NCBI GenBank assembly: GCA_011033025.1
Contig: WFMF01000094.1
Coordinates: 186,001 to 250,000 of the forward strand
DNA from: Beroe forskalii
Taxonomy: Eukaryota > Ctenophora > Nuda > Beroida > Beroidae
Direction of reading: 5' to 3'
DNA length: 64,000 nucleotides
Part shown: positions 5,775 through 61,705 of the stretch, one piece after another
Position numbering within the stretch: the first letter of the stretch is position 1
Layout of the letters: each line of letters begins with the position of its first letter
The notes under the pieces: model-generated
The model's database searches: none
What the model was told of the DNA's origin: nothing
What the model saw: the letters and a program-made list of their open reading frames with translations, nothing else
Position numbers and translations under genes: made by a program

Positions 5775-6592
5775 ACTTCCGTCGACCATGTATAGGCAGT
5801 ATACACCTGACTGTAACAAAAATTATATAACAGGGATGTTATCCAGTGTATTCGCCTTGCAAGGCAAATATTCCTGAGGCTCGCAGGACCAGGGATTATA
5901 CTTATAAGAATAAAATGTTTCCTTGTGTTTCAATGAAACCTCGTTAACTTCGTTTTCGAAGGTTTATTTTTGGTTTGAAAAAACGTTTATATCAAACCAA
6001 AAATAAACGTTTAAAAATTTATTTTGGTTTGCAGTAAACGTTTTCGCCAACCAAAATAAACTTTCAGAACGTTTATTGTTGGTCTTCAATGTTTTTCCAC
6101 AGAACCTGAAATAAACGTTTCTGTAACGTTTACTTTCGGTTTTAAGAAAACGCTTTTGTGGACCAAAATTTAAGTTTTTGGAACGTTTATTTTTGGTTCT
6201 GTGCGAAACGTTTCGTGAATACCAACAATAAACGTTTCGAAAAAGTTTATTTTTGGTTGGCGAGAAACGTTTACTGACCAAAAATAAACGTATTTTAAAC
6301 GTTTATTTGAGGTTTCCATGAAACGCAATTCCAATCCGTAAAATTGTTATTGTAAACCAAAGATAAACGTTAATTTAACGTTTATAATGGTATCATATAA
6401 AAACGTTTTGGATGAACCTAAATTAAACGTATCAGAAACGTTTATTTTGGGATTTCAATAAACGTTTCACAGAAACGTTTATTAAACGTATCAAAAACGA
6501 TTATCCATAACGTTTGACGGGAACCAAATTTAAACCAAATATAAACGTTTATTATTGGTTTATTATTGGTTTGGTTTGAAAATGCCGGCTGG
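5775..6592 (+). repeat. AACGTT-rich dispersed element, fullest copy
   Basis: The left part (CCGTCGACCATG, then GCCTTGCAAGGCA, then TTTCCTTGTGTTTC) matches 51413-51570. The right part, from GAGGTTTC near 6310 to the closing TGCCGGCTGGG, matches 53876-54165. The body alternates AAACGTTTATTTTTGGTTT and its reverse complement at roughly 40-bp spacing, centred on the palindrome AACGTT. No protein is encoded. The family is unrecognised and no target duplication was found. Confidence 0.7.
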
Positions 6593-6595
6593 GCA

Positions 6596-6718
6596 CTTAT
6601 TTGCTCTCGGCTAACGCCTCGATCGAATTTGTGTTATGTGTACTTATCAATACTCGGCTTCGCCTCAAGTGATCATAGTACACTTAAAGAACTCGGTTTC
6701 TCCTCCTGAAATTAGTGC
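6596..6718 (-). repeat. Short element of GCGAAGC-type hairpins
   Basis: Read on the minus strand, outer segments GCACTAATTTC and GCACTTATTTGC form a rough terminal inverted repeat. Between them lie three segments with the tip sequence GAGGCGAAGCCGAG or variants (GAGGCGTTAGCCGAG and a degenerate one). The middle one has a stem of GTGTACT paired with AGTACAC. The architecture matches 42596-42767 and 52888-53074. Confidence 0.55.
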
Positions 6719-35617: not shown

Positions 35618-35713
35618 TAGTATCAATATCATATGTTTGCAATTCAATTTCAAGCTTCTGCATGCGTTTTGAATGCAGATTAAAGAGAATGAACGATTAA
35701 CTAACGAATGGGA

Positions 35714-35775
35714 GTGTTATATCGAAAATTATCACACGAGGCGTCAGCCGAGTTTGACAATTTTCGATATAACAC
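35714..35775. repeat. Hairpin with GAGGCGTCAGCCGAG tip
   Basis: GTGTTATATCGAAAATT pairs with AATTTTCGATATAACAC. The tip contains GAGGCGTCAGCCGAG, a GNNA-loop variant of the GCGAAGC family. A related GTGATATATCGATAATTATC segment lies at 36122. Confidence 0.7.
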
Positions 35776-37368
35776 GATCCATGAGTTAGTTAATTGTATT
35801 ATCACCCGACCCTACTTGGCTTGACCTAGCTGCTTCTGATTTCGGTATTTACGCTGCCTACATCAGGATTCTAGCTCTTTTCTTCAGGATTCAGCCAGGG
35901 GCTAGCCATACAACAGTATTTCCTTCCACTCGGGTCTGACGACCCTCGTCCGGATTGAACGCCTTTATAGATTTGCAAGTGCTCCTTTATCAAAATTTCT
36001 TTTCAAGTTTTTTCTGCATTCATTTTTTGGCTGTTTACCGCCTAGATTTGGTTTTATATTTGGGCTTCATTTGCTCCTTTAGAAAATTTTTGCGCGCGCC
36101 ACTATACAGTAGTTTTAAAGGGGTGATATATCGATAATTATCACACCCGAATTATAATCACGGGAGGGTGATAATAATTCTTTTCCAACCAGAGCAGCAA
36201 TTATATTAATTTCCAAAAATGATTTATGGCCCAAAATGGAGAATGCAACAAAAATGAAGGAAACCCAATGAGACACGGGAATAACTTGAGTGAGGGTGGA
36301 ACATAAGAAGTCGTTTTAGAAAATTGAGGCCCACGTCCATCATATCATATCATCGATTACTCAGGATGCTTACAATATGCACCTCCTGTTTTAATGGTGC
36401 ACTTTAAAAACATTTTCCCAGGTGTCTCGACCTTTTGAGGAGCGGCGAGTTTCGCCACGTCTGGGTACTTTTCAAGGCACACCAACAGATATGGAGCTAG
36501 GCCTACCATTGGATATATGAATAGGTAATATGGTGTCAGTGATAAGGCAGAGGAGAACAAACTGCGAGGAGATACTCTTATCTAGCAACATAAATGGTTA
36601 CAAAAACATTCGGGGACTTAAAGCCAAACTCTCAATTAAAGGATAATGAATAATACTCGGGAGAGGTAGACCGGCGGAGAAGAATAGGACAGTTTATCAA
36701 CATGCCACCAACAGAGCAGCGACCTCAAAATGAAATTGAAAGTGTTAAAAGGGATGGGAGGCACGTAAAGCGCATGACCACGCAGTTAAATGATCCCTGA
36801 ACCCAGCCTGAGCCAGGCATCCCTGAACGCAGCCTAAGAAGGTTATACCACGGTGTCTCGAAAATATGAGTGGCAACTAGCAGGGCTTTAGAAATAGAAC
36901 ATCAAAGTAAATAGCCGTAATAATGAAATGATGAAAAGTAATCAGCAGTTACCAAAATCTCTATTATCAAAACAGATAAACGTTTTATCACACAATGAGA
37001 CAATGCTAACAAGCTTAGAAAGTGATCCATTGATAACGTAGGACAGTCAGTGGTTACGCTGGGCATTTGACAAACAGCATACATTATCCAGAAACAGAAG
37101 ATATGACAATGATTCTGATATTTATGATTCGCGCGCCAAAGTGTGCGTACGTGATTATACTTAGCACCAAGTTCACATTCCGGACATTAGGGATCATGAG
37201 AGTTCAGCACCTCTTTACTGTGGTTTGTAGATAAAAATAAACAATATAACGTGAAATTGCGTGTCTTGAAACTGCAACTCTGCAACATAATATTATCGGA
37301 TGGGATTTTTCTAAACCCTCACAGTTTGCTAGCAAGAAGCTTTTAATGATAATTGTTGCAGAAAAGTA
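35776..37368. other. Gene-free stretch
   Basis: No gene or named repeat was recognised in about 1.6 kb, apart from the related hairpin half near 36120-36180. Confidence 0.4.
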
Positions 37369-41814: not shown

Positions 41815-42595
41815 GCAATTCTACTGCAATATTCTTCATGAATTATATACAGAGCATAGAAGAAAGCCAAGTTATGAGCAGTTACAAAATTTTTGTTAAA
41901 TGTACCCACCAGTGGGTAAAAATACCCACCTAGAATTGAAATCAAAGTCGTAATCTCAACAGAAATTTCCTATAATTTAAGAGTAACATAACAACCAAAA
42001 CTTGAAATAAAATGAGCAATCGCCGAAATCTAAATAATATCAAGTTGTGCCAATTTTATTTCTGTACCGTTGAACTGTTTAGTTATCGTAGAAAGTTCGA
42101 TTCCGTGAAAGCAACCATTTCTAATCTGTTCAAGAAGATCCAACATGTTAGATACCTAACATGTTCGATAACATTGGTCAATTAGGCGAGTTATTGCACA
42201 TGATTTATTATCACGGTTTCTATTTCATACACCTCTCATAAATTATTATCTGGTTTCCATTTAATGTACACCTTTTCATCTTCGGTTATATATTCGGGTA
42301 TCGTAAATAGCACTATCAGTATCAGATAATAAAGCATATATTATGAACTGCTCGAAGTAAGGGCGGACCCTTTCAATTAACGCTGATATTCGTTATAATT
42401 CCAACATTGCACAGTTATAATTCAGAGAAAATTCTCCTGCGATTCTAACTTTCTCAATACAAATTGAGCGGAAATTATTTAAGAGGCCATAATGCCAAGG
42501 GCTCTAGCTAAGCATGACGTGATTGACCATGTCACACTTAGTTTAGGCCCAACCATGTAATATCTGACGAGGTCATGTCATCATGGTATAGAACT
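41815..42595. other. Gene-free sequence
   Basis: It contains TACCCACC motifs near 41905-41930 related to the palindrome, and a small perfect inverted repeat (AACATGTTAG / CTAACATGTT) at 42142-42165. Nothing else was recognised. Confidence 0.4.
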
Positions 42596-42767
42596 ATAGG
42601 TCGAAGGAGTAACCTATATAATACCACATATATGTAGTGAGCGCGAAGCGCGAACTATATATAGACGCATTATTGGCCGAAGCGAAGCTGAGGTCAATAA
42701 TGGTTTGTTTTGGACGAGGCGAAGCCGAGTTCAAAACAATGTGGTATTAGGTACTCCTGAGACCTAT
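42596..42767 (+). repeat. Three-hairpin element with GCGAAGC tips
   Basis: The outer inverted repeat is ATAGGTC...AATACCACAT against ATGTGGTATT...GACCTAT. Inside are three hairpins. The first has a TATATGTAGT / ACTATATATA stem with tip GCGCGAAGCGC. The second has an ATTATTGGCC / GGTCAATAAT stem with tip CGAAGCGAAGCTGAG. The third has a GTTTTGGA / TTCAAAAC stem with tip CGAGGCGAAGCCGAG. The linker GGTTTGTTTT between hairpins 2 and 3 matches GATTTGTTTT in the 52888-53074 element. Confidence 0.75.
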
Positions 42768-43138
42768 GGTGATATTACATGGCGAAATTACATAAATTGT
42801 GGTGGAAACTCATAAGAAATATGAAACATGACGTCTCATAGTTGTACTTGTATAGTTGTATCAGGCGTCATGGTAAGAATGCTCTCGCCGGTAATTGCAT
42901 TTTTGTCGGGCCTCAAGACATGTACTTGTAGACATATGTCGATGGAATGCATATTGTGATGCCATGTAGCAATTTACCACAGTGAAGCAAGATAACGGCG
43001 TCATTTGAACAGCCTGTTGATCATTGGAGTCTCAAATACCACAAAATTCGAATATCTGCGTTCCAACCAAATTATTCAAATTGAATTGGCACTTGAGGCG
43101 GCAGGTATCGTTACTCGTGTAATGGTCCGCAAACAAAT
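42768..43138. other. Gene-free sequence
   Basis: Nothing was recognised. Confidence 0.4.
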
Positions 43139-43260
43139 GTAGACAACTCACGTCATAAACTTTCTTATTGAATCTACGACGATGTCATCATTGTAAATAC
43201 CCTATCAACTCTTGGAAAATCCTATAACATGGGGTTATAGGATCCGAACGACTCTAAAAA
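43139..43260 (+). repeat. Flanking direct repeat, left
   Basis: It contains CTCACGTCATAAACTTTC and AACATGGGGTTATAGGATCC. The same segments recur in the same order at 43900-44015, on the other side of the GGTACC array, so the array sits between two diverged direct copies. Confidence 0.7.
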
Positions 43261-43263
43261 GAT

Positions 43264-43886
43264 GGGGGGGGGGGGGCAACCCCCATAAACCCCCATAAAC
43301 CCCCAAAAATTTAACCCCCATTTGCCTTTTTCGATATCCACTTGGGGGCTTATGGGGGTTTAATTTTCCAGAAAAAGGTCGAAAATCTTTAATGAAAATC
43401 GGTACCATTTCAAAATAGGGCCAAAATCGTCAACAAAAAATGGTACTATTTCAGAAAAGGCTTGAAAATCGCCAACAAAAAATGGTACCATTTCAAAAAA
43501 GGGTCTAAGATTGTCAACAAAAAATGGTACCATTTCAAAAAAATGGCCGAAAATGGTACCATTTTAGGAAAGGTTCGAAAATGCGCAACAAAAATGTTAC
43601 CATTTCAAAATCAAAAAAGGCTTGAAAATCGCTGAAAAATGGTACCATTTCAGAAAAAGGGCCGAAATTCATCAACAAAAAATGGTACCATTTCAAAAAA
43701 AAGCCAAAAATCGTCAACAAAAAATGGTACCATTCCGTAAAATGCCAAAAATTGTGAACAAAATCAGTCATAAAACAGCAAAATTTAACTAAATTAAGCC
43801 CCCATAAACCCCCATAAACCCCCAAAAATTAAACCCCCATTTGCCATTTTTCGATATCCACCGGGGGTTTATGGGGGTTGGCCCCC
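43264..43886. repeat. GGTACC-palindrome array between G/C-rich ends
   Basis: About ten units of roughly 38 bp each contain GAAATGGTACCATTTT or a close variant, a self-complementary segment. At both sides stands a block of about 95 bp in direct orientation made of CCCCCATAAACCCCC runs, TTCGATATCCAC and GGGGGTTTATGGGGGTT. The outermost G run and C run are inverted, and AAAGAT flanks both sides, which could be a 6-bp target duplication of an inserted unit. The minus strand of the CCCCCATAAA block has four or more G5 runs. Confidence 0.65.
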
Positions 43887-43899
43887 CCCAAAGATATTT

Positions 43900-44015
43900 A
43901 GGCGACTCACGTCATAAACTTTCATATTGAATCTACGTCGGAGTCATCACTGTAAACACAGCTTATAGGGTCGGAAACGACCACATAACATGGGGTTATA
44001 GGATCCATCCCGACC
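43900..44015 (+). repeat. Flanking direct repeat, right
   Basis: Counterpart of 43139-43260. Confidence 0.7.
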
Positions 44016-44117
44016 CTATAATATTGAAATAACCCGATGTATATGGTTGCAAATAAGGGCTTATGAGCCATGTAATATCAGTTATACGTTCTAAATTCGT
44101 CGGATTAGAAACATCAA

Positions 44118-44915
44118 CTCCAGTGAATCACAAATACAGTGGTGAATGGTGAGTGAAAACTCCAGTGACCCACAATAACAGTGGTGGATAGTGAGTGAAA
44201 ACTCCAGTGAATCACAAATACAGTGGTGAATGGTGAGTGAAAACTCCAGTGACCCACAATAACAGTGGTGGCTAGTGAGTGAAAACTCCAGTGAATCACA
44301 AATACAGTGGTGAATGGTGAGTGAAAACTCCAGTAACCCACAATAACAGTGGTGGCTAGTGAGTGAAAACTCCAGTCAATCACAAATACAGTGGTGAATG
44401 GTGAGTGAAAACTCCAGTAACCCACAATAACAGTGGTGGCTAGTGAGTGAAAACTCCAGTGAATCACAAATACAGTGGTGAATGGTGAGTGAAAACTCCA
44501 GTAACCCACAATAACAGTGGTGGCTAGTGAGTGAAAACTCCAGTGAATCACAAGTAGGGGTGACTGGTGGTGAAAATGGTGAGTGAAAACAGGGGTCCAG
44601 AAAACTCCAGTGACCCACAAGTACAGTGGTGGCTAGTGAGTGAAAACTCCAGTGAATCACAAGTACAGGGGTGACTGGTGAGTGAAAACTCCAGTGAATC
44701 ACAAGTACAGGGGTGACTGGTGAGTGAAAACTCCAGTGACCCACAAGTACAGTGGTGACTGGAGAGTGAAAACTCCAGTGAATCACAAGTACAGGGGTGA
44801 CTGGAGAGTGAAAACTCCAGTGACCCACAAGTACAGTGGTACTGGTGAATGGTGAGTGAAAACTCCAGTGACCCACAAGTACAGTGGTGAATGGTGAGTG
44901 AAAACTCCAGTGATC
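44118..44915 (-). repeat. 42-bp minisatellite with 84-bp dimer pattern
   Basis: About 19 units. The unit contains GTGAGTGAAAACTCCAGTGA followed by a variable ATCACAAATACAGTG or CCCACAATAACAGTG segment. In the 44118-44530 half the two unit types alternate strictly, giving an 84-bp higher-order repeat. Because 42 is a multiple of 3, two frames stay open on the minus strand for about 166 codons (WSFHS-type repeats). I judge these noncoding. Confidence 0.88.
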
Positions 44916-45954
44916 AGTGGATCAGAGACAATGGACCGCGGTTGCTCTAATTCTAACTCTGCGCCCAGGATGAGTACCGAACAATCTAATTCACAAATGC
45001 AGGTATTATACAATGGATAAAAGCACTATTGTTTCATCATCATATCGCTATAACAAGCGCTTCAGACCTGAGGTCGAACGCATATAATACGAGTCACAAG
45101 TTCAGCCAATGGCAGACCACCATCGAGAAGCGAGTGACCAATCAGAAATGGAGTGCGGGCACGTGCCTAATATAAAGCAAGACATTGTTGTCGTTTGATA
45201 AAAGGGCGATTACAATGCAGCGTAGCTCGATATAGGCCATGTTCAGAATACTAGAAGAAAGGGTATAATAACAATTCTTGACAAAAGGATTAATTCAAAA
45301 CTCAGCTCATAACACCCGGCTTGACTTTAACCCTGCCTTTAATTGCACTGCCCTGTAACTTATCAGCTAAACAATGCCTCCCGACAACATGTGCAGCGCA
45401 TTATTATTGCTCACAGAATCATCAGTATCTTCTTCATTACTGGCAGATAATATAATATAGATCGTAAAAGTTGCTCTGTTTACTTCGACGGTCGGCGTAA
45501 AAAATACGGATCACTCGCTTCAGTCACTACAATAATCAACCATAAGCAGATTTTTTCAACTTTCGTGAAAAATATGGCTCGGATCATGCAGGTAGTGATT
45601 ACGCGGAAACTCACCAAACAAAAACCATTGAGGACTGCAGTATACTCGAGAAGCAACATTCAAGTAGGGCGTTTCCTAACCAAGCGGGGCATATCGGAAA
45701 GAAAACACGGACACGCGCTAATCTCCATGCTAATACGTGGAAGTACTGATTCAATCAGGACAGTTATCTGATTAACTGATCCCACAAAGGAAACGAAGTC
45801 AAGGTGTGTGCGCGTGTGTGCTCAAGCGAAATGCTAATAAGATGGTGTGAAGAGAGTGGCAAGTGATCTAAACAAATCGCACAGGAATGCAATGTTTCGA
45901 AAGTGTACAAATATATTATACTATCGCATAACAGCCTAATATTCGGCTGATGTT
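44916..45954. other. Gene-free sequence
   Basis: Nothing was recognised in about 1 kb. The frame at 45565 has no domain. Confidence 0.4.
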
Positions 45955-46442
45955 GGGCCGTCCCCGCGCGCGGTGCGTGGCCGGGGCGAGCGAGGGCGTG
46001 GAACACCGCGTGGCACGTGATGAGGCTCGAGCCCTGCCATTGGTGGGGTTAGAGTGACAGATGCACACGGATTGGATTATCAGGTTCTGTGTTAGGAGGA
46101 GGAGTTGTTGAAGCTATCACTTACAAGTATAGAATGAGCGGTAATCATTAATTACCGTTCACTCCTCCTAGTGTAGCGCAAAGACTCATCGTCTCTTAAC
46201 CATCGTCAAGCAGAAACATCCCTCTTGTCATTATCTAACACACCACGAGACACGTCACGTGACATCACCCTTGCCTCCTATTGGTTGGATGCCCCCTTTC
46301 CTGGAATCTCACTGGTCGGGATGAAGTGCACCGCGTACATATAATATCCGAGGGATGGTGTCATGCACCCGAATAACAAGGACCAGCTTGTTAGGACGTT
46401 GTGCAGCTAAATTGGCACGTGCAAATACTAGCGGGTCACGTG
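45955..46442. promoter_or_regulatory. CpG-rich patch with E-boxes and CCAAT boxes
   Basis: The patch at 45955-46020 is the most CpG-rich noncoding stretch of the window. CACGTG sites lie at 46014, 46256, 46416 and 46437, with ATTGG (inverted CCAAT) at 46039, 46280 and 46411. The recurrent E-box/CCAAT pairing suggests a promoter, but I found no first exon on either side. Confidence 0.4.
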
Positions 46443-47644
46443 TGCGCGCAGGGACTCATTGCTAAGCATTTCCAGTATATATTTAGATCCACAGGTAGAA
46501 CGATTTAGACGCTCTTGATTGACGGGTAACGTCCAAGCAATTACTTGCTTGATGCAGATATTAGTAGATTGATCTAATACTTCTTTATCATTACGTACAC
46601 GAGCTCGCAGATGGCTTTTTGAAAGTAATAATTTGATTGGAATCAAGGAATTAGAGGCAGGTCACCGGATAAAGGATCATAAAGGGGTATTTAACGTGCT
46701 ATCTGGAGCTTAAACTATCCGCAAAAACAAACAACAAGCATGGAGTAATTTAGCTAACGCTTGTATAGCAGTAGACCTTCTTCCCCAGTTATTATTTAAC
46801 TATTGAAGATTGAGAATCAAGGAGAGTTCGTATTTTTAGAAAGCTGAGTCCGTCTTCAAGTACTATCAAATCTGTCTTTACCAGTCTACAGGTGTCTCAA
46901 CTGCCAATTATTGTCAAGATCTGGGAACTGTGCTAAGGTGGAGATAACCAAATTTTAGAAACTTGCCAAGGATCAGGAAATTAACAGGATAATTCTCCGG
47001 CTACCGATCGTACACCATCGACGCCTAAAAGAGAATGCCGGTGGGCGATGGTACTCCGAAGATGCGCTTACGGCCCTACACTGTATCAAGCCATTGCTTT
47101 TGCAAAAATAGCTAGGACTTACCTAGTAGATTCCTCCACACTACCTAAATCCAAACAACCAAATTCTTAACTTCTATAAGATGATAACTAGGTATTGAAG
47201 GATTCCCATTTCGCAACAATTCCATCCTCTGCTGACAGTCACAAGATTAATAACTTCCACCCCGAGTCACGTTGGGTTATTTACCCTCTCAACCCCACGG
47301 ATAGTGCTACAAACAACATTATTTAGTCGCATAATGATAACGGTCAACTTTACAACTTGTTTACCCTCCATAATTTCAAGCTGAGGTTAACTGGTTAACC
47401 CGATGCAATGCGTTAAATTATTGAACGGATTCAAATAACCTAACAGGTTGAACTTTTATTTGACGTCGTTACATTACATAATAAGTTCTCTGGGTGCTTA
47501 ACAAACAAATTCGTTAAACTGGTAATTCAGTGTTACATTTTGTCATATGATTATCACGGTAACCTAAAAGTTTAAGCAATAAATTGGTTATTAAACTTAT
47601 TCAGCAATTTCTCACAACCATTTCACTAAATCTTAAGAATATGA
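46443..47644. other. Gene-free sequence
   Basis: Nothing was recognised in about 1.2 kb. Confidence 0.4.
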
Positions 47645-47746
47645 TGAACTATATATCAAAAACTGTGTCATTAAAAACTAGAAGATCACTTTAACATTGA
47701 TAAAATGACCAATGTTAAAGTGGGTTCCTTGTTTTTAATGATACTA
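47645..47746. repeat. Small foldback (MITE-like)
   Basis: GTCATTAAAAAC pairs with GTTTTTAATGAT as outer arms. Nested inside, CACTTTAACATTG pairs with CAATGTTAAAGTG. Superfamily unknown. Confidence 0.6.
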
Positions 47747-47807
47747 TATATTTGGTAACTATATTGCTAGGCCAATGTTGGCCTAGCAATATAGTTACCA
47801 AATATAT
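47747..47807. repeat. Perfect short palindrome
   Basis: TTTGGTAACTATATTGCTAG and the adjoining GCCAA are followed by the exact inverse, leaving a loop of only a few bases. It directly abuts the foldback at 47645-47746. Confidence 0.8.
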
Positions 47808-48316
47808 TCGAATTCCACTCGAAATACTAAGTTGAGAATTATACCTAAGAGTGTTGGGTACTTAAAAGAATTACGGAATGTCTTCAATAAGCTTAAAATG
47901 AATAGTCGGATTCAGATGCAGTAACTGGACACTGCACAGCAACGTATTTTTATCTACATACTACAGTACGGAAGTGCTAATCATGATCAGCAATCATCCG
48001 TGTCTCAATAGTTAGTAGGAAAAGCAAAAAATGTTATTCAATTTTATGTGTAATCTAATGCAATAATAACATTTCATACCTCCCTCTTGTTTACCCCCCC
48101 CAGCTACTCGTGCCTGAATTGCCAAAGATCACGAATTTGAGGTGGTATTATCACACATGTGATTATGATTTATAAATGACAAAACTAACTTTTAGTTTAG
48201 ATAGCTAGTTCCAGGCATCCGTGAATCGAGCCAACATTATTACTGTCAATAGTCAATTGGTCACAGGTGAGTTGTAGGTTACGGTTAATGAAAGAATGAA
48301 AACTTGAAACGACGTC
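47808..48316. other. Gene-free sequence
   Basis: Nothing was recognised. Confidence 0.4.
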
Positions 48317-48631
48317 GATACTACAAGCAGGAACTAGCCAAAGCGGCGTAACGACACACACCACCAGGAACCAACCCAAAAAGCTCCCGAATCAAGCCGA
48401 AACAAGCTGAAACGAGGCGAAAAAAGCGAATCAGCCCGAAACAAGCGATACAACTCGAAACAAGTGAATGAACCCGAATCAACCTAGGTAAGGGTAGGGG
48501 TCAATTCGGGTTGATTCGCTTGTTTCAGGTTGATTCACTTATTTCGGCTTGATTCGGAAAGGTCTTTTGGTCAGTTCGGGGTGGTTTCGGTTCGTTTCGG
48601 CTTGATTCGACAAGTTCCTGTATGTAGTATC
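48317..48631. mobile_element. Foldback element of GAAACAAG repeats, copy 1
   Basis: The termini GATACTAC(A)AGCAGGAACT and their inverse enclose two opposing arms of about 11-bp repeats of the AAGCCGAAAC / GAAACAAG type, meeting near 48490. A diverged second copy lies at 54401-54700. No target duplication is clear. Confidence 0.7.
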
Positions 48632-49449
48632 AAAATTAGCACTTTAACCCACTGACGGCATCCACAAAATAGGCTAACATACCTGACAATCTTTTCAAGA
48701 ACTTAAAATAAATATTATTAGCACGAGAGTACAGTACCCTAAATGGTCAAGTTACGAAAATAAGATGCTATTTTCTGACACCTATTTAAGTATTAATTGT
48801 TCTGGTTTTTATGAAACTCTCTCCACCACGTGTAGTTGTGTTGAGTAGTTTACATAATCCCTCCATAATATTAACAAGAAAATATGGAACTTTTGTAATA
48901 CAGCATTTCTCAGAAACTCTCCAAGTCTAGACTAGGATAAGCCCGTAAAAGGAACAATTCCCGCAGAATCACGGAAATTAGCCCTCATTAATCATTACCT
49001 GACATTTTGGCAAGTGCCAAGTGGTTTGCGTGATGATTAGCCATCGAAAGGATGGTCACAGCACGGGGTGGGCTTGATCAGGCCTGTCAAGCAGCTCTCA
49101 AAAAGTTGACAGGATTTCATTTTTGAAGCCAATAAACCATGAGCCCATCCTTAACATGATAATATAATCACTTTCAAGTTTCACAACAGTGAAGTAGGTA
49201 TTTGCATGGAGATTGAGGGTTCAGGGCATTAATGAGACAGTGATGTACTGATGTGGGGTAAACAAATTTTATAAGGCATTTTAAGAATTGAACAAAAATT
49301 TGAAGATAAGTTGAGTGCACTAGAAGATTTGCATAGTGAGTACGAAAACAAGGCATACAACGAAATTGTGCAGAGAAAATAACATACAATGAAAAATTCA
49401 TGTTTGAATAAAAAAGAGATAATGAAGCACGATCAAAATGCTTCGAATT
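48632..49449. other. Gene-free sequence
   Basis: Nothing was recognised. Confidence 0.4.
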
Positions 49450-49458
49450 GTATTTTGT

Positions 49459-50847
49459 GATTCCCGGACTTTATGCCGACACTGGACCATATGCCGACTC
49501 CGAAAAACCCCTGGTCGGCATAAAGTCCAAAAATGGACTTTATACCGACACTGGACATTTTACCGACATGATTTCCCGGACTTATAAAAACGCAAAATAT
49601 AATTGCAAAGATAATAATATGATCAGTATTATAATATCACACACATAATAATCAAATACATAAGATCACTCATTATCTAAATCAAACTACCCACAACTTT
49701 CAGATATCTTACAATACTATAATCATCGTACTTGTCAACAACTCTCTGAAGACGTTCATCGTAGTTGATCCACTTCTTCTGTCGGGTAGGAGGGGGATCT
49801 CTGGTCATGTGCTTCACGATCTTCAGCTCTGTGAGGGAGTGCTCCAGCTTCAAGGCATCCAGGAAGGACCAGATGGTGGGGTTGGTGCAGGTCACAATGC
49901 TCTTGAAGCCATTGTGCCATCCCTCCGCAAGGTTGGAAGACCAAGGTAGACCGCAGATGGTGGCATCAAGTTCTGGTTCCATCCCAACTGGTCGAAGAGA
50001 GGTCTGGTAGAGGAAGTCCCCAGCCAGGTGTGCTCCATGTAGGCAGCAAAGGAGTCCATCTCTGAAGGAAGGAGAGGTTTGAGGTGCCGCCAAGCCATGT
50101 CGACATCACCGGGAGGAACGAAGGGGAGAGCTCCTACCATCTGGAAGGACTTCCGGACTGCCGAACCCACCACTCTGTACTCTTCGGTATATATACTCAT
50201 CTGTGTCCCAATCACAGCTTGGTGAAACATCACTTCATTCACTCCAACTTATAATCCCAATCACAGCTTCAGAAAACGTCCCTAAATTCATACAACCCAA
50301 TAATCTCAATCACAGCTTCACAAAACATCACTATATTTACTTCACCTAATAACAAGCTGCATCTAGCACCTCATCAGCGATCGCACCTTGTTAGCGACAC
50401 ATGACACGCGATCCAGCGGAAAAGCTCTCGAATAACAGGCCTGCTACTGCCTATTCCCAATCACAGCTTCATAAATCGTCCCTAAATTCATACAACCCAA
50501 TAATCTCAATCACAGCTTCACAAAATATCACTATATTTACTTCACCTAATAACAAGCTGCATCTAGCACCTCATCAGCGATCGCAATATCGCATCTTGTT
50601 AGCGACACATGACACGCGATCCACCGGAAAAGCTCTCGAATAACAGGCTTGATGCTGCCTAATAACCGCTATACACTATCGGATAAGGCACAAGGATACG
50701 ATAAACCAAATAACAGAAGGGTAGCACAGATTTGCCTGTCGGCATATAGTCCAAAATCGGACTTTATGCCGACAGACGATATACCGACATGTCCCTAGAA
50801 ATCCTATGTCGGCATATAGTCCGCTGTCGGCATAAAGTCCGGTTACC
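49459..50847 (-). mobile_element. Internally deleted MULE, copy 2
   Basis: Flanked by a perfect 9-bp duplication GTATTTTGT (49450-49458 and 50848-50856). Termini and subterminal repeats match copy 1 at 1033-3450. A deletion removes what is 1749-2840 in copy 1 (1092 bp), with the junction at 50181/50182. This takes out the FLYWCH finger and the first two catalytic Asp residues. The surviving C-terminal frame (49677-50093 and above) keeps the NLAEGWHNGFK motif. Copy 2 retains about 60 bp in the second subterminal block that copy 1 lacks. Few substitutions separate the copies. Confidence 0.93.
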
Positions 50848-50856
50848 GTATTTTGT

Positions 50857-51029
50857 GATACACCGTGATATGAATTGTTAATAATACTATAAATAGTCTG
50901 AAACCCACTACTACTAGAAATGTGGCAACTTTCGCCGGAACTTTGACGAAAATGATATAAGAAACCAATGAAATTAATTATAGGTTAATCATGAGAGCCA
51001 CGTGTTTATATCAACCCAGCAGGCCAAAA
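50857..51029. other. Short gene-free spacer
   Basis: Nothing recognisable between the MULE duplicate and the AACGTT-rich segment. Confidence 0.4.
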
Positions 51030-51625
51030 AGCGTTTAAAATACGTTTATTCAACGTTTTTTGGGAAACCTTAACGAAACGAAATAACGTTTAATAAACGT
51101 TTATTAAACGTTTTTTCGCGTAACGTTTTAAAGCATACATTCGGTTTAAAATTTACGTTTCATAAACGTTTCTAGGGAAACGTTTAATAAACGTCAAACA
51201 GAAACGGTTATTAAACGGAAAATCACTCGAAAAATAGTTCCTGCGGTTTCGTTTATTTATGGTTTATAAATCGTTTTCAAAAAAACGTTTCTGATTGGTA
51301 TCCTCAAAACTATAAATAAACCAATTGATTAACCATTTCATCACTAAATTATTTCTTACTGTCCTAGACCCCTAGGACAATCTCGACTTGGACTATCTAG
51401 TGAGTCCTCCGTCGACCATGAGTATACAGTATGAGTACACACATGGTTTTAACAAAAGTAATAGAACTGGGTTATTAACCACAGTATTTGCCTTGCAAGG
51501 CACAATTTACAGACTGAAGCAGGACGGGGGATATAATTGTAAGGGTAAAAGGTTTCCTTGTGTTTCTATGATAAGGTTTATTTTTGGTTTATTTTTGGTT
51601 TATTTTTGGTTTATTTTCGTTTATT
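51030..51625 (+). repeat. AACGTT-rich dispersed element, second copy
   Basis: 51030-51310 is packed with AACGTTTATTAAACGTT-type palindromes. 51413-51570 carries the CCGTCGACCATG, GCCTTGCAAGGCA and TTTCCTTGTGTTTC landmarks of the fullest copy (5775-6592). GGTTTATTTTT then repeats four times in tandem (about 51580-51620). Confidence 0.65.
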
Positions 51626-52887
51626 TCTTATTCATTCGCTATCTATCAGTTTTTTGTGCGTGTTGATTAAGCAATTTTCTTATCAACAAATTGCAGCGTA
51701 TTTGCACAATATAGCACAAGCCTTTGTCCACAGCTGGCACGAGTTCACGCCCTGGGCAAGGCGGTAATCCGCGGAAAGATAGAGAGTAGAACCATGTTTA
51801 AAATGTTATTTTGCGCCATTTTGAACATCTATAACTAAATCAGTTTTTATCGGATAATGTTTTAAATTGGTAAGTTGCTTATGTTGTTCCTTAAGAATTA
51901 GCTATAAAACAATTTTCAGGGCAATCAGGTGTTAAATGCGGCCTCTGGAAGCCTCTAAAAATTGAGCTGCAAAATGATTAAAATAGGTTTTTGGCGAAAA
52001 ACGTTCTGCTGCCGCACTTAGTAATGCTATATAAGTGACCTTTTCATGGTGTCCTGTTGCCTGTTAGTAAAAAATCAAAAATGATGGAAAATAGGAGATG
52101 AAATTGTGCTGCACGTGAGTTCACGCGGAAGTTTGGTAGAAATTAGGGCATTTCATGAAATCAATATATACATGGGATTTTCGACTTGATTTTGTTAAAA
52201 CAAGTTCAAATACGATTAATGTGCGTGAAATTAGGTTCCAATGCTACAATTTTGCACGTGAGTTAGCACGGACGTTTTGTAGAACTTATTGAAATCGCTA
52301 CTTTTGATTTATTCAGGCATTAAACGTTACGATATGATGAGTTACGTGAACCCAAAGTGTGTTCGGAGGAGTTGCATGGGTTTGAACGGCCTCATCCAAT
52401 TTTAAGGGAGATAATTCAGCGACGACTCTTTTGCGGTTTTGGAGCCATATAGTTATATAGTGTACAAAGATCACGCATTAAATTCTCGCTAGAAAATCTG
52501 CACAGTGTGGCGAAGGAAATGAACTTTCAATGCTGTGTTTGGTGAAAAGTGGGAGGAGGTCAACTGTACTGCAAGACGACAGTGATGAAGTTTGACAAGT
52601 CTAGTCTACTCAGTCAAATTTGGTTTTGACAGCTGTCCGCGGTTTTCTTGTCAAGAGAGCAAGAGCAGAGTCAGCAGCTGGATCGATTCATCAGTTGAGG
52701 CGGATTCCGATCAAAAATCAGGAAACTCGGTTACAGCAGAGTAAATGTGAGCAATTCAAGAGTGAGTTTGAGGAGTGTCAGTGATGCGGTCAAGCATGAG
52801 CTGGGGTATGAAGAAAGAAAAGAGAGCTGAAAGCTGCGGTGAAATTTGCTGAGAAACACGGCGACTGAAAGTGAAAGAAAGGGCGGT
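51626..52887. other. Gene-free sequence
   Basis: Nothing was recognised in about 1.2 kb. Confidence 0.4.
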
Positions 52888-53074
52888 AATATAGAGTTAC
52901 TCAACGAATAAGTGTGAAGTAACATGATTTATGCCACGAGCGAAGCGAGTTGCATAAATCGCATTATTCACCGAAGCCGAATGCTGAGTTGAATAATGAT
53001 TTGTTTTCATCGAGGGCGCAGCCCGAGTTGAAAACATGCTGTTACTTCACACTTATGAGTTGTGTAACGATATT
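52888..53074 (+). repeat. Three-hairpin element with GCGAAGC tips
   Basis: The outer inverted repeat contains ATAAGTGTGAAGTAACA. Hairpin 1 has a GATTTATGC / GCATAAATC stem and tip CGAGCGAAGCGAG. Hairpin 2 has an ATTATTCA / TGAATAAT stem with a degenerate tip. Hairpin 3 has a GTTTTCA / TGAAAAC stem and tip CGAGGGCGCAGCCCGAG. The order and linkers match 42596-42767, but the stem sequences differ on both sides. Confidence 0.75.
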
Positions 53075-53433
53075 ATTCACCAAGTGTAAAAAGTACAAAG
53101 CTTTGACCCTTTAAAAGGCTGAGGTTTTTAGCATTCTGCACAGTTCACAGCAGAAAAGGACGTTCTCTAGTATCACTTTTTTTGGTGTAGAGCAATTATC
53201 TACTGATCAGTCAAGGTAGCAGTGTGCCAGCTCTCCCAACAGAAAAGGACGTTCTGTCGTATCACTTATTTGGCCAAAGTGTTGAATAACATCATAAAAA
53301 TGGCAAATAACACGGTGTAAGAGTGGAATAACATGGTAAAAGTGTGAATAATACCGAAAAGGGTGGAATAATACGACAAAAAACTCTAAATTACACGTTT
53401 ATATTCAACCGGAATAACCCCACCACATGGTGA

Positions 53434-53548
53434 ATAATATGATGTTACTACACACTATTGAGGTGTGGATTGGTGAATATTCCTCGAGGCGAAGCCGAGT
53501 GGAATATGGGAAATCCACACCGATATCCGTGTGTAGTAACATTATTAT
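53434..53548 (+). repeat. Nested hairpin with GAGGCGAAGCCGAG tip
   Basis: The outer arms ATGTTACTACACAC / GTGTGTAGTAACAT enclose a second stem GTGTGGATT / AATCCACAC and a third ATATTCC / GGAATAT, which carries the GAGGCGAAGCCGAG tip. The intervening 53075-53433 has GGAATAACATGG-type repeats and no gene. Confidence 0.75.
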
Positions 53549-53875
53549 TTAACGATCCGAAAAAAGTACGAGGCCGCTCCGTAATCTGGATTTCAAACTC
53601 GGCGAACGGGCTGTGAGTTAAATAATAGTAATTATACTGTTTGTTCTTGAAGAGATTACCAGCGAAGTTGTGCGGGGGAAGTGGAGAAGAGCCTGCAGTG
53701 GACATATCTGCAACAGAGCGAGCCATCAGTCCGTGACTGCTATGGGGTGGGAATTTCTAATAACCTGAACAGCCGGATCAAGTTTGATTTTAAAGCCCTT
53801 GTGGGTGCTACACACAGGGTTTGTGATAAACAGGTTTTTCGTGAACGAAAAATACACATTTTTAAAAAGTTTACT

Positions 53876-54165
53876 TGAGGTTTCTATGGAACGAAACTTC
53901 AATCCACAAATTAGCTTTCTGTAAACCATAGATAAACGTTCCACATACGTTTATTTATGGTTTTGTAGAAAACGTTATATGTAAACCAAAAATAAACGTA
54001 TCAGAAACGTTTAATTTTGGTTTTGGTGTAAACGTTTCTACAGATCCGTCTATTAAACGTATCAAAAACGTTTAGAAATAACGTTTGACGAAAACCAAAA
54101 TTAAACCAAAGAAAAACGTTTTTCATTGGTTTATTTTTGGTTTGGTTTCTTTGTGCCGGCTGGGA
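53876..54165 (+). repeat. AACGTT-rich dispersed element, right-end copy
   Basis: It matches 6310-6592 from GAGGTTTCTATG through ATAACGTTTGACG to the closing TGCCGGCTGGG. The left part of the element is missing. Confidence 0.75.
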
Positions 54166-57896: not shown

Positions 57897-60800
57897 TCAG
57901 TACATAAATCCGAGTTGTTCAGTTCTCGCGAAGCCGCCACTGTCCTTGTTTCTAAACACAAGAGGACGGATCGCATGACGAACCCACATGTTCTCTATTT
58001 TCTCGTAAATCTGTGGCGAGAGCGTCAGAGCTTTGTTCCTCGTGCTCTTGTAACTTTCCCCGTATTTGTCGACATAAGGTCCGTTGATGAAGTGTCCTTG
58101 GGTACGTAGCGGTAGCAGGAGAACCTGACATTTGTCCAGGGTAAGGAATATCCCCAGATCACCGCTACAGCGATGAGCGTGCATGTTGCAGGGCCCAAAG
58201 TTATCGTCCCTAATGGTTTCCTGGCAACAGTAACTCTGGAAACACACCATGTCACCGCACACCAGACACATGGCAGTGGTCTGTATCTTACCGAACTGTA
58301 TACGAGGGCAGGTGTACTGCGAAGCTTTGACGATCAGATCAATGTAGCTGTGTGGGAGAGGGATGAGCTTAGCTTCGCGCTTTGTTTCATTGAACTTCAC
58401 CGTAGACCAGAACTTCGTGCGGTCAAGAGACTGACACCACTTCTGAACCAGTTCTATCTTGGAGGTGCCCTCGATCTTCAACAAACTCTCGAGAGACTCA
58501 ATGTTCAGATACTGGAGTAATAGCTTGAATTCTCCCTCCGGGCTCTGCATTTCCTTGAGACCATCGGATCCGGGGATGGAGGTTGCATAGCGCAGGAACA
58601 GCGCTAGTTTCCTCAGCAACGGCAGTAAGTTGGTCTTGACCTTACTGACGAGGTAGGTGGGGCACTGGAAGAGATCGTCAGTATCACTGACCTGACACAT
58701 CTTCCTAACATGGCCCCACAGGGACGCCAGCTGGATGGCTAGCGCGTCCTCAGCTCCACTGTCTGTCCCAGACAGCTCGTTAACTTCCACAGACAGCAGT
58801 ATCTTGATGATCTGGGCAGTTACACACAGCTCCACCAAAGCGTTATCGTAACTCTTACCTTCCTGGTGAACCACGAACCGTGTGGCAACGAACACAGTGA
58901 AAATGTCAGTGTTAAGGATGCTTGGTAGGTCGACACTGTTCGATACCTTGGGAGAGAAGAGGTAGAGGAGCTCACGGGACAACTCCTGACTAAACAAGTG
59001 ATCACTGGAAGTGATGCTCATTTGCAGGGTCCTCAGGATGGAATCAAAGAAGCCTTCCTGGTACTCTGCCAGCCCTTTGAGCAGAGGTTTCTCTCGCAGG
59101 ACGTACTCCAGCATGGAGAAAGTGTAGGACACCATCTTGAGGGCGAAGGGAGCGTAACACCGGGCTCCAATAGCTTCCTGATCCAGAATGTTCTTAGCCC
59201 TTCTGTAGAACCTCCTCATATCCTCCTTGAACTTGGCAATGGGATCCACTTGGGTCTCCTCATCAGGGTCAGAAGAGCTGGCCAGCGTATTCTGCAGTCT
59301 GAGACTGGGGTTCCTCACTGAATCTCTGAGTATCTCCATGAAGTTAGCCTCAGTTAGCTCATCATAGGCTAGGAATTGTAGAGATGAGGTGGACTCTGCA
59401 GGAGATTCAGAGAACTCCAACTCCATCATCTCTATGTCGTTGTTATCATCCAGCCGGCATGCCACGTCCTCCAGAAACTCTTCAGTAGGAACATCTGGAG
59501 CACTGTGAGGGATGCAACCTACCACGGGCAGGGCACAGTTAGCTGCCATCTTGCAGTAGGGGCACGAGAAGTCGCCTATGGGAAGGTAGGAGGAACTCCG
59601 GTCTCGGATGAAGAGTTCCTGTCTGTTCCGGTCAGTACCAGTCATGGTTAGGATTTGTGGAAGGGTGGAGGGGAGCTTCTGCAGACACTTCAGATGGACC
59701 GGATGTCCGCAAGACTGGATGTGGAGGTTCTCGCCTCCAATCAGGTGACTCATCCTGTAGTCCTCGCTAATCTCATTGTCCTTCTCCACCTTCAGAACCA
59801 CCGACTTCTCTATCAGACACCCATACATCATGGTGGAGTAACCACTGCTCACACTCACTTTCTCGCTGTCTTTGCACAGGATACAGGTTAAAATCAGGTT
59901 CTCAGGCTTCGGTATCGGACCTTTGTTCGGGCCACAAACAACGTGATTAACTGATTCATCAACAGATTCCATTTCCTGATCCTCCGTTTTGGCCTCTTCG
60001 TCACTCTGCAACTTGTCAAACACCGTCGCGTTCTCCGACATGAACTTGTTCTGCTGCGACTTGAAGTTGTTGAGGATCGCTTCCCTGCGTTTCCTCATCA
60101 TCTCTCTTCTCGAGTCAGGGGTTTTGGTGGAGGGGGAAGGTGCTGCTTCTTCAACGCTCTCTGCTTCCTCGGAAGCATTGGTTAACGTGTCAAATGTGGT
60201 GAGGGTCCACTTAATGAGCGGCTTGACTTCGTTGACGCTCTTAATGTTCATGGTCAGGAGTTTCTTGAGGAGACTGACAATGGAACACGTGTTTTCCTCA
60301 CTGATCAAGTACTCCGGATTATCTTCTCGTGCTATCACGGAGGAAAACAGGACCGGAAGAGGGTCATCAGGTGTCTTCATCTCATCCAGGATCCCGAACA
60401 TAATGAGATAGAGAACTTGGTGAAGGAGCAGGTCAGACACCATGACGGGGGCATCTGAAGCAGTGAACCTCTTCAGTACCACGTACATGAAGCGCTGCAC
60501 AACAGGAGATACGAAGTAATGCCGCAGGTTCTTTGTCAGTGTAGTGAAGGCAGGGAGGGGCGGGGGCTGGAAGTCTCTGTTCGCACTCTCGTGGTAGTAC
60601 TTATTCTCCGCACTCTGGCGCTGGCCGTGCGAGTAGTGGTAGTAAAACGGGATGAACTCGTTGTAACACTCGTCCTTTAGCTTTAACATGGTTTTCACGC
60701 CATCCTCGATTGGAATCTTCGTTGATATCTTGTCTAGAATATCATCAACCTCGATGCTGTTAAGAATATCATCATCGAAGTGATCGTAGTTATTTTCCAG

Positions 60801-61705
60801 GGTCTTGATGACCTTACTCCGCAGGACATTTGACACAGCCAGAATGTGAACGGCATCTTTCCGGATTATATCTGCTTCACTTGCCTCGCTAACATTCAGC
60901 CTGAAGCGTTCAGCTAGGATGTAGAGAAGAAGGGAGGAGAAAGCTTCAGCCATCCTGATCAGAGGATCATAGGAAACCTGCTCCGACTTGAGGAGGACGA
61001 AGTAGGGCTCTATCTTGTACTTCTGGACAAGTTTCAGGATAGCATCTTCTGGCGATGATATAGCTAGGAGTAGCTGTATAGCCAGCAAGTCCTTATCCCA
61101 CATGACACACTTGTAGTGGTCTCTGTAACAACTGCTCTGTTGCTCCATAGTGGTTCCATTCCGCTTCCACATACTCGCCTCAATCTGCTGACTCAGCAGC
61201 ACGGACCGTAGAGGTATGTCCATCAGCTCCTCAGGGGTAAAGGTCTTTAGCAGCAACTCTATGGGCAGGTCGAACTTAGGGAAGAAGGAGAAGACGATAG
61301 CGAAGAGTCTGGTGACAGGCAAGTGGAAGGAGACCGGGTCTCTGAACATGTCATGTTCTACGTACGTCACCTGTCTCCTGAACAGCTTCTTCTCCATGAT
61401 GGAGAAGTGTTCTCTCTCCCAGGGCTTGGTGTTGGGGGCTCCCCCAGGGCTCGGACCATGTAGTCCAGAGAGCTGTATGACGTCACGTTGGTGGGCTTAG
61501 ACACCTCGAACTTGTCACTGTTATCGAGCTGTGCCCTGAGCAGGACTTCCAGCGACTTGACGAAGAGACGAGGGGAGGCCGTGCACCACCGAGCTACGGA
61601 GGACATTAGCTGACGGATGTCATTTATCTCGAGGATGAAGTATTGGTCCCACTCCTTCTCGTTGAGGATGTGGTTGCTGCTCTCACGCACGTGCGGGTTC
61701 ATCTC
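57897..61705 (-). CDS. UBR1/UBR2-type E3 ubiquitin ligase, terminal coding exon
   Basis: N-recognins of this family bind N-terminal degrons and pass ubiquitin from an E2 to the substrate, in cytosol and nucleus. This exon begins after a CTGCAG acceptor at 61706 (E-M-N-P-H-V, phase 0) and ends at a TGA at 57897 after LGFMY. Counting from the Met at 61397, a RING-H2 domain lies at about residues 503-610 (CILC, then SCGHPVHLKC, then CPYC). The C-terminal autoinhibitory domain has a Cys/His cluster at about 1043-1071 (CLVCGDMVC, SYCCQ, CNMHAHRC) and GPYVDKYGE near 1104. Upstream stretches such as HLPVTRLFA, MWKRNG and FYYHYSHGQ align with vertebrate UBR2 from memory. The protein ends a little differently from vertebrate UBR1/2. 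The exon is 3809 nt, not a multiple of three: the N-terminal 90 codons and the rest are in different frames, meeting near 61440. UBR1 versus UBR2 cannot be decided. Confidence 0.93.

Follow-up and report, generated by a model that had tools for sequence, protein, structure and literature searches.

The DNA described here is a stretch of 64,000 nucleotides from the ctenophore Beroe forskalii (contig WFMF01000094.1, positions 186,001 to 250,000; C1069:186001-250000 in our numbering), hereafter the window, and the searches covered the whole genome of 216 Mb in 1134 contigs. The window holds four complete non-autonomous elements (A-D) and a decayed one (E), members of a genome-wide class of foldback, single-strand-type transposons whose closest known kin are Helitron2 and HINE. 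Each of A-D opens with a cruciform made up of one to three hairpins, the tips of which consist of GA, an inner stem of 2-5 bp, a GNA or GNNA loop, the complementary stem and GA again. The cruciform is immediately followed, at 44-54 nt from the last tip, by a 10-nt guide box, X (ATTANNNNNN, i.e., ATTA plus six further letters), that is reverse-complementary to the 3' end of the same element (X', N6TAAT). Copies found in other sequence stretches taken from the genome (L numbers; most were chosen because they hold a tip) share boundaries far beyond the hairpins.

An earlier note on this DNA had described a family of short elements with such tips. All the hairpins it named lie where it placed them, but the intervals it gave are merely the 5' parts of A-D; the search it proposed for fuller elements sharing the same ends led to complete, non-autonomous ones. 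Two of its intervals, 52888-53074 and 53434-53548, do carry hairpins but belong to two elements, B and C, that abut exactly. The decayed tip it saw near 52985 is a worn form of AGCC-GAA-GGCT, which is intact in L018 and L024. Its reverse-strand interval (E) is a family member as well, with the letters kept in two of three tips but with decayed outer stems.

The tip motif is in strong excess genome-wide, as a search along the lines suggested in that note revealed: the commonest tip, the 14-mer GAGGCGAAGCCGAG, occurs with at most one mismatch at 2,325 places (1119 + 1206), compared with 19 (8 + 11) for its reversed control. The window contains seven tips of the above grammar that have an outer stem, whereas 60 dinucleotide shuffles gave 0.03 on average and never more than 1. 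Across the examined stretches, 76 hairpins with 17 tip sequences fit the order stem, GA, inner stem, GNA or GNNA, inner stem', GA, stem'; many of these are copies of one family, and some sites were counted twice in overlapping stretches (e.g., L003 and L004). When flank or loop letters were altered in the same scan, 0-2 matches were obtained for each alteration versus 49 with the true letters, and the 48 matches of the mirror class are the same type of site on the opposite strand. A scan of these stretches with free loop letters (inner stem of 3-5 bp, 2x2 internal loop, outer stem) yielded 40 distinct hairpins (80 over both strands), at least 28 of them with GA/GA internal loops, and GNA or GNNA loops were present in 24 of the 28 GA/GA hairpins listed. 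Merging near-identical hairpins left 21 distinct contexts. The loop was closed by C-G in 21/21, GA was followed by a purine in 21/21 and preceded by a pyrimidine in 19/21, none of which was demanded by the scan; the loops were GAA (13), GCA (3), GTA (1), GTCA (2), GTTA (1) and GCCA (1).

Tandem sheared G-A pairs in DNA follow a Py-GA-Pu rule. Stems starting with C would break this rule, and the genome-wide absence of 3-bp G+C stems of that kind (CGACSSGNASSGGAG, one place, not complementary; control, 8) fits it. The pattern CGANSSGNASSNGAG was found at 2,478 places (reversed control, 492); among the first 100 listed, most of which are copies of three tip types, the stems were complementary in 91 and not in 9. 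GNA and GNNA loops with at least two G-C pairs form extraordinarily stable, nuclease-resistant DNA mini-hairpins (PMC4686876). The tips have the same loops on G-C stems as these d(GCGAAGC)-type mini-hairpins, which were, however, described for synthetic oligonucleotides. Within the limited collection of literature searched, the tip grammar appears to be undescribed, and no paper linked GNA/GNNA mini-hairpins to transposon ends.

The compensating stem changes that the earlier note had pointed out in two members were confirmed and extended to 61 stem pairs, using a MAFFT alignment (A1, 208 columns) of eight 5' ends from the related families A, A2 (L025, L026) and B. Both sides had changed with pairing kept in 26 of these 61 pairs, and 95.9% of cells were paired. 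When the partners were slid by 1-3 columns, 29-45% were paired and only 2-3 pairs had changed on both sides. No shuffle out of 500 reached the observed values, except for the measure of further pair types (reached by 391 of the 500). At one pair (137-141) and in part of the tip columns of hairpin 4 the alignment is wrong, with a 4-bp inner stem facing a 3-bp one, and these positions are not countable as covariation; since A1 comprises essentially three lineages and this misaligned tip region, the counts do not represent independent events. G-T pairs also occur in the stems. Selection on a folded single strand, which the earlier note had suggested, is well supported, and the letters point to the strand with the GNA loops as the one that folds.

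Box X was matched exactly by the 3' end of its element in 20 of 42 distinct clusters, compared with 0.32% in a control in which the six variable letters of X were shuffled. Exact partners exist for ten different X sequences, in every case at the 3' end of the element itself, and from one family to the next box and end change in step (Table 1). The 3' end of D was first predicted from X and then located at 36165-36175, exactly where homology to L026 ends. The cruciform occupies the interval between X and the nearer terminus in A-D as well as in families F, G and P1.

Table 1 Elements, cruciforms and guide boxes of the window, and X/X' pairs of further families.
Feature	Position	Strand	Basis
Element A, complete non-autonomous copy	42588..44076	+	BLAST against L003, L014, L008 and L034; ends located
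5' cruciform of A, outer stem around three tip hairpins (tips 42639, 42679, 42716)	42588..42773	+	Fold of the near-identical L003 copy; covariation in alignment A1
Guide box X of A, ATTACATGGC	42774..42783	+	Exact reverse complement at 44067-44076
3' end (X') of A, GCCATGTAAT	44067..44076	+	Pairs with X of A
Element B, complete	52891..53438	+	Matches L024 2571-3310 and L018; left flank GGTAAT
5' cruciform of B with three tip hairpins (at 52938, 53012 and, decayed, about 52985)	52891..53071	+	
Guide box X of B, ATTATTCACC	53072..53081	+	Exact reverse complement at 53429-53438
3' end (X') of B, GGTGAATAAT	53429..53438	+	Pairs with X of B
Element C, 188 bp, abuts B base to base	53439..53626	+	
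Guide box X of C, ATTATTTAAC	53544..53553	+	Exact reverse complement at 53617-53626
3' end (X') of C, GTTAAATAAT	53617..53626	+	Pairs with X of C
Element D, complete, GTCA-loop tip at 35738	35691..36175	+	L026 copy has empty counterpart sites in L021 and L028
Guide box X of D, ATTATCACCC	35798..35807	+	Exact reverse complement at 36166-36175
3' end (X') of D, GGGTGATAAT	36166..36175	+	Pairs with X of D
Element E, related to family G but decayed; letters preserved in two of three tips, outer stems decayed	6596..6718	-	Similar to L028 1398-1517 and L021 3365-3455
X/X' pair of family A2, ATTATATGGC/GCCATATAAT			
X/X' pair of family F, ATTAGCCAAT/ATTGGCTAAT			
X/X' pair of family G, ATTATACCAC/GTGGTATAAT			
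Further X/X' pair, ATTATTTACC/GGTAAATAAT			
Further X/X' pair, ATTATTACCC/GGGTAATAAT			

Three clear and two less clear empty sites revealed insertion after YAWT or a similar tetranucleotide, with no target duplication (a caret marks the insertion point below). L014 contains an occupied site, with A followed by the second element P1, as well as an empty relative of that site (..TTAATGTAAT^ATGTTC); L021 and L028 lack the D copy of L026 (..AAGGAAT^TACT); and the K insertion of L177, which lies inside a Helitron, is missing from the sister copy L178 (..CAACAAT^CCCTTA). For D in L185 compared with L181 the right junction fits and the left flank has diverged, and the comparison of P1 in L002 with L001 is ambiguous, in AT-rich sequence. 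YAWT stood at the end of 31 of 56 left flanks (2.7% in the background), a count from which 3 of 59 flanks abutting another element had been dropped and 4 D flanks excluded, and in which some misses are matches to the other palindrome arm that were left in the denominator. Eight more left flanks read ATAT because the P1 pattern begins two bases inside the element. The base following ..TAAT was A in 53 of 55 right flanks. The left tetranucleotide varies (TATT, CAAT, TGGT) independently of the constant 3' end, which identifies it as part of the target and rules out the left TAAT as a duplication; it is also present in empty sites.

Elements also join head to tail: in the arrays of L035 and L036, where B abuts C, and where P1 abuts A. 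P1 directly follows the 3' end in the A relatives of L003 and L014, and A in the window stands without it. The 5' part of C occurs again in L006 with no B before it, and inverted inside a B copy of L018. An internal minisatellite has expanded in A at about 43280-43880. Among five open reading frames checked for coding remnants inside the elements, one gave a sub-threshold match and nothing else was found.

The comparison of copies establishes, at the level of sequence, the anatomy of the elements, the pairing of X with X', the target and the absence of duplication. We think it probable that these are short, non-autonomous, Helitron2/HINE-like elements moved as single DNA strands by an HUH nuclease. 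In this process, the strand with the GNA loops would fold during replication or unwinding, and the nuclease would recognise the cruciform. A first cut would be made in the left flank, after a YAWT paired with the ATTA of X, and a second at the element's own 3' end, paired with all 10 nt of X. The 3' end would then replace the flank, joining the ends into a circle, or, alternatively, may be handed to a further YAWT target held on that same box X.

We searched the genome for an enzyme partner with four HUH-type profiles, and matches were obtained only at Helitron-type places. Helitron_like_N (PF14214) gave 21 matches, some being fragments of a single gene, and the generic HUH profile PF23343 gave 13, all overlapping or adjoining the PF14214 places. 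The profile of the Y1 transposase (PF01797) found no match in the genome; it matched six of 14 control genomes, all prokaryotes, and a very divergent eukaryotic Y1 could therefore escape it. The CRESS Rep profile (PF02407) found no match in the genome, and none in its control either. Of the HUH or Y1-type enzymes envisaged in the earlier note, Helitron HUH domains are present in this genome and a Y1 match to PF01797 is not, and no domain was found linked to these ends. An HUH enzyme is a plausible mover, and the nuclease is likely a Helitron2-type Rep-helicase encoded elsewhere in the genome, an assignment reached by elimination and not by link. The tips were also considered as the Helitrons' own ends and rejected, the K and D tips in the examined Helitrons being nested insertions. 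The Helitrons of contigs C802 and C256 end in a hairpin plus CTAG. Those of C847 are of a type with PIF1, DUF6570 and a 2OG-Fe(II) oxygenase domain; at L178:2-4450 (C847:366500-370950), one long frame has the 2OG-Fe(II) oxygenase and DUF6570 upstream of the Rep and PIF1 parts.

Several observations weigh against Helitron2-like movement. No exact X' was found within 1.7 kb in 22 of the 42 clusters: eleven of these belong to P1 or resemble it, with pairing at 10 of 11 positions in ten of the eleven, four end with their stretch within 720 bases, and the rest are degenerate or unplaced. The hairpin at the 3' end is weak: A, B and D have short ones there with z of -1.1, -1.8 and -2.7, respectively, and z is +0.1 for C. 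The left flanks of A in the window (TGGT), of L042 (ACGT) and of two of four D copies (GAAT) depart from YAWT. Nearest-neighbour DNA energies favour the GNA strand slightly and by a small margin in A, C and D, and the other strand in B (-45.5 versus -46.5). We found no autonomous element that bears these tips: in the examined flanks of the Helitron genes on C847 (two), C802, C256 and C359, which stop short of the ends of the C847 elements, tips were present only as nested insertions. Finally, movement itself is read from the comparison of copies.

Published Helitron2 elements carry one inverted repeat at the 5' terminus and a second, 3' repeat just ahead of the hairpin, and compensating changes were noted in Helitron-1N1_CQu and -1N2_CQu (PMC3627910); DINE-1/HINE are the abundant non-autonomous kind (PMC4067079). 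Our elements share with Helitron2/HINE short asymmetric terminal inverted repeats, one terminal and one subterminal beside the hairpin (here X' and X, in reversed orientation), and a hairpin, here the cruciform, placed between that subterminal repeat and the closer end. As in Helitron2/Helentron and HINE/DINE-1, there is usually no target duplication, and internal tandem repeats and tandem copies occur. They differ in their multi-tip cruciform of ~100-190 nt in place of a short stem-loop, in the mini-hairpin tip grammar, in the YAWT^A target, and in that no autonomous Rep-helicase with the same ends was found here. Helitron2 has a 5'-terminal T and inserts at TTTT^T/C or T^T; insertion here is mostly at YAWT^A with a terminus that reads, in Helitron2 orientation, ATTA or, with the flanking base, TATTA. 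The terminal repeat of Helitron2 also lies within a hairpin of its own at the other end, the place of the short, weak hairpins of A, B and D. Canonical Helitrons (Helitron1), with 5'-TC, a 3' hairpin followed by CTRR and an A^T target, do not fit, the ends here being of ATTA type, and the two Helitrons of this genome with a hairpin plus CTAG likewise differ from the tip elements. FoHeli1/2 of Fusarium oxysporum insert at TNAT^A and have a 5' hairpin with a GAA loop, and the joined ends of FoHeli1 have been amplified (PMC5148889). The target and the GAA-loop hairpin are thus alike; however, FoHeli elements have the inverted repeat placed within the 5' hairpin and 38-51 bp away from the 3' end, the hairpin is single and short, and a Rep-helicase is encoded. 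Abundant small palindromes attributed to an HUH-type transposase are also known as bacterial REP elements with TnpA-REP. Bacterial REP elements have tag sequences other than the tips described here, and we know of no pairing 3' end in them.

Other explanations have to be weighed against Helitron2-like movement. We regard as unlikely a eukaryotic peel-and-paste system of the IS200/IS605 kind, in which a Y1 HUH transposase rather than a Rep-helicase, with X as its guide, would cut the folded strand at YAWT^ on either side. Like IS608 and ISDra2, the elements would fold as a strand, and by sequence comparison they insert 3' of a short target kept on the left, have a base-paired guide and leave no duplication; as in IS608, the hairpin is flush with the cut and a tetranucleotide similar to the target stands at the 3' end. 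IS608 uses tetranucleotide guides, and longer ones were engineered 3' of its hairpin (PMC5934647), the very place at which X is found. However, PF01797 has no match in the genome, although a very divergent Y1 could go undetected; each end of IS608 bears a hairpin with a guide 5' of it, whereas here a single strong hairpin end is accompanied by one guide 3' of it, with 10-nt Watson-Crick pairing to the element's own end; and the paired inverted repeats suit Helitron2 better. Replitron-like elements with a stand-alone HUH endonuclease are very unlikely. The TAAT of the left flank and of the 3' end could be read as the direct terminal repeats of 5-11 bp given for Replitrons in a review, but the left TAAT belongs to the target, as it varies and is present in empty sites, and the 2-8 bp duplications of that review are not seen in these elements.

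Highly improbable, in our view, are structured RNA elements, SINE-like or regulatory, with hairpins that act in the transcript. A cloverleaf-like fold with compensating stems would also be expected under selection on RNA, an alternative raised in the earlier note, and G-T pairs are present. All seven GNNA tips are, however, GTCA, GTTA or GCCA, never GNRA (0/7), and GNA/GNNA loops on G-C stems follow the DNA mini-hairpin rule, which disfavours RNA; it was on the non-GNRA loops that an RNA role was rejected. Empty sites without target duplication, the pairing of guide and 3' end, and the target suit DNA cleavage. We give as little credence to folded-strand recombination sites comparable to integron attC that a tyrosine recombinase exchanges. 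Such sites would account for the cassette-like head-to-tail joining (A-P1, B-C and the P1 arrays), whereas single copies occur at dispersed sites and both cut sites would suit an HUH nuclease; no search for a recombinase was made.

Tips were also seen in other settings. Inside D, at about 35930-35950 on the minus strand, lies a further tip with a 5-bp inner stem, a GTCA loop and only two outer pairs, and the sequence around it (35906-36014) recurs in L024 and L028. A variant of family F has up to three GAGGCGAAGCCGAG tips (L016 at about 4401, L011 at about 4285, L032 and L033), and the X of L016 has a matching X' about 1.6 kb further downstream. The K insertion of L177 (1968-2143) has GC-rich tip hairpins (GAGGRCCCGAAGGGYCCGA) in a tandem repeat of 78-79 bp. 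In viral contigs, at least 120 stretches contained a tip 15-mer, a stem surrounded the tip in 4 of 80 scanned, and the longer F hairpin found no match. One viral contig (L135, IMGVR_UViG_3300050510_000332) carries two tip-like hairpins with identical outer stems and different inner stems, GGC with a GAA loop and GC with a GGA loop.

The gene content in and near the window is animal-like. The open reading frame at 57897-61397 encodes UBR-type ubiquitin ligase domains, and further frames resemble, as judged by eye, a G protein-coupled receptor and alpha-2-macroglobulin. Long repetitive frames lie just past element A (44114-44876). Positions 6277-6593 and 53845-54164 are copies of one 320-bp block, 79% identical, that adjoins E and stands shortly after B-C, and the block is near such elements in L018 as well. 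L029 (C1134) is a mitochondrial contig with a very divergent cox1 in which TGA is read as Trp; AGA is kept at the usual Arg of 'IIRL' by our reading.

To our knowledge, single-strand end recognition by Helitron-like elements in animals is poorly understood. The many natural copies described here provide a readable code, with tips that follow hairpin rules of DNA, not of RNA, and bear compensating changes, together with a guide that varies in concert with the end of its element, so that end recognition, circularisation and target choice can be tested directly on short oligonucleotides. Transposons may thereby offer a natural role for the exceptionally stable GNA/GNNA DNA mini-hairpins. A bolder proposal, which we put forward tentatively and hold to be rather doubtful, is that of a large animal class of single-strand DNA transposons distinct from Helitrons, in which the signal would be a three-dimensional mini-hairpin (Py-GA-R..C-GNA-G..Y-GA) rather than a sequence, the 10-nt guide, pairing both with the element's 3' end and with YAWT targets, would set the target, and guide, end and target would co-evolve. 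If such a guide-paired reading were true, these elements would represent a natural and, in principle, reprogrammable peel-and-paste lineage in eukaryotes.

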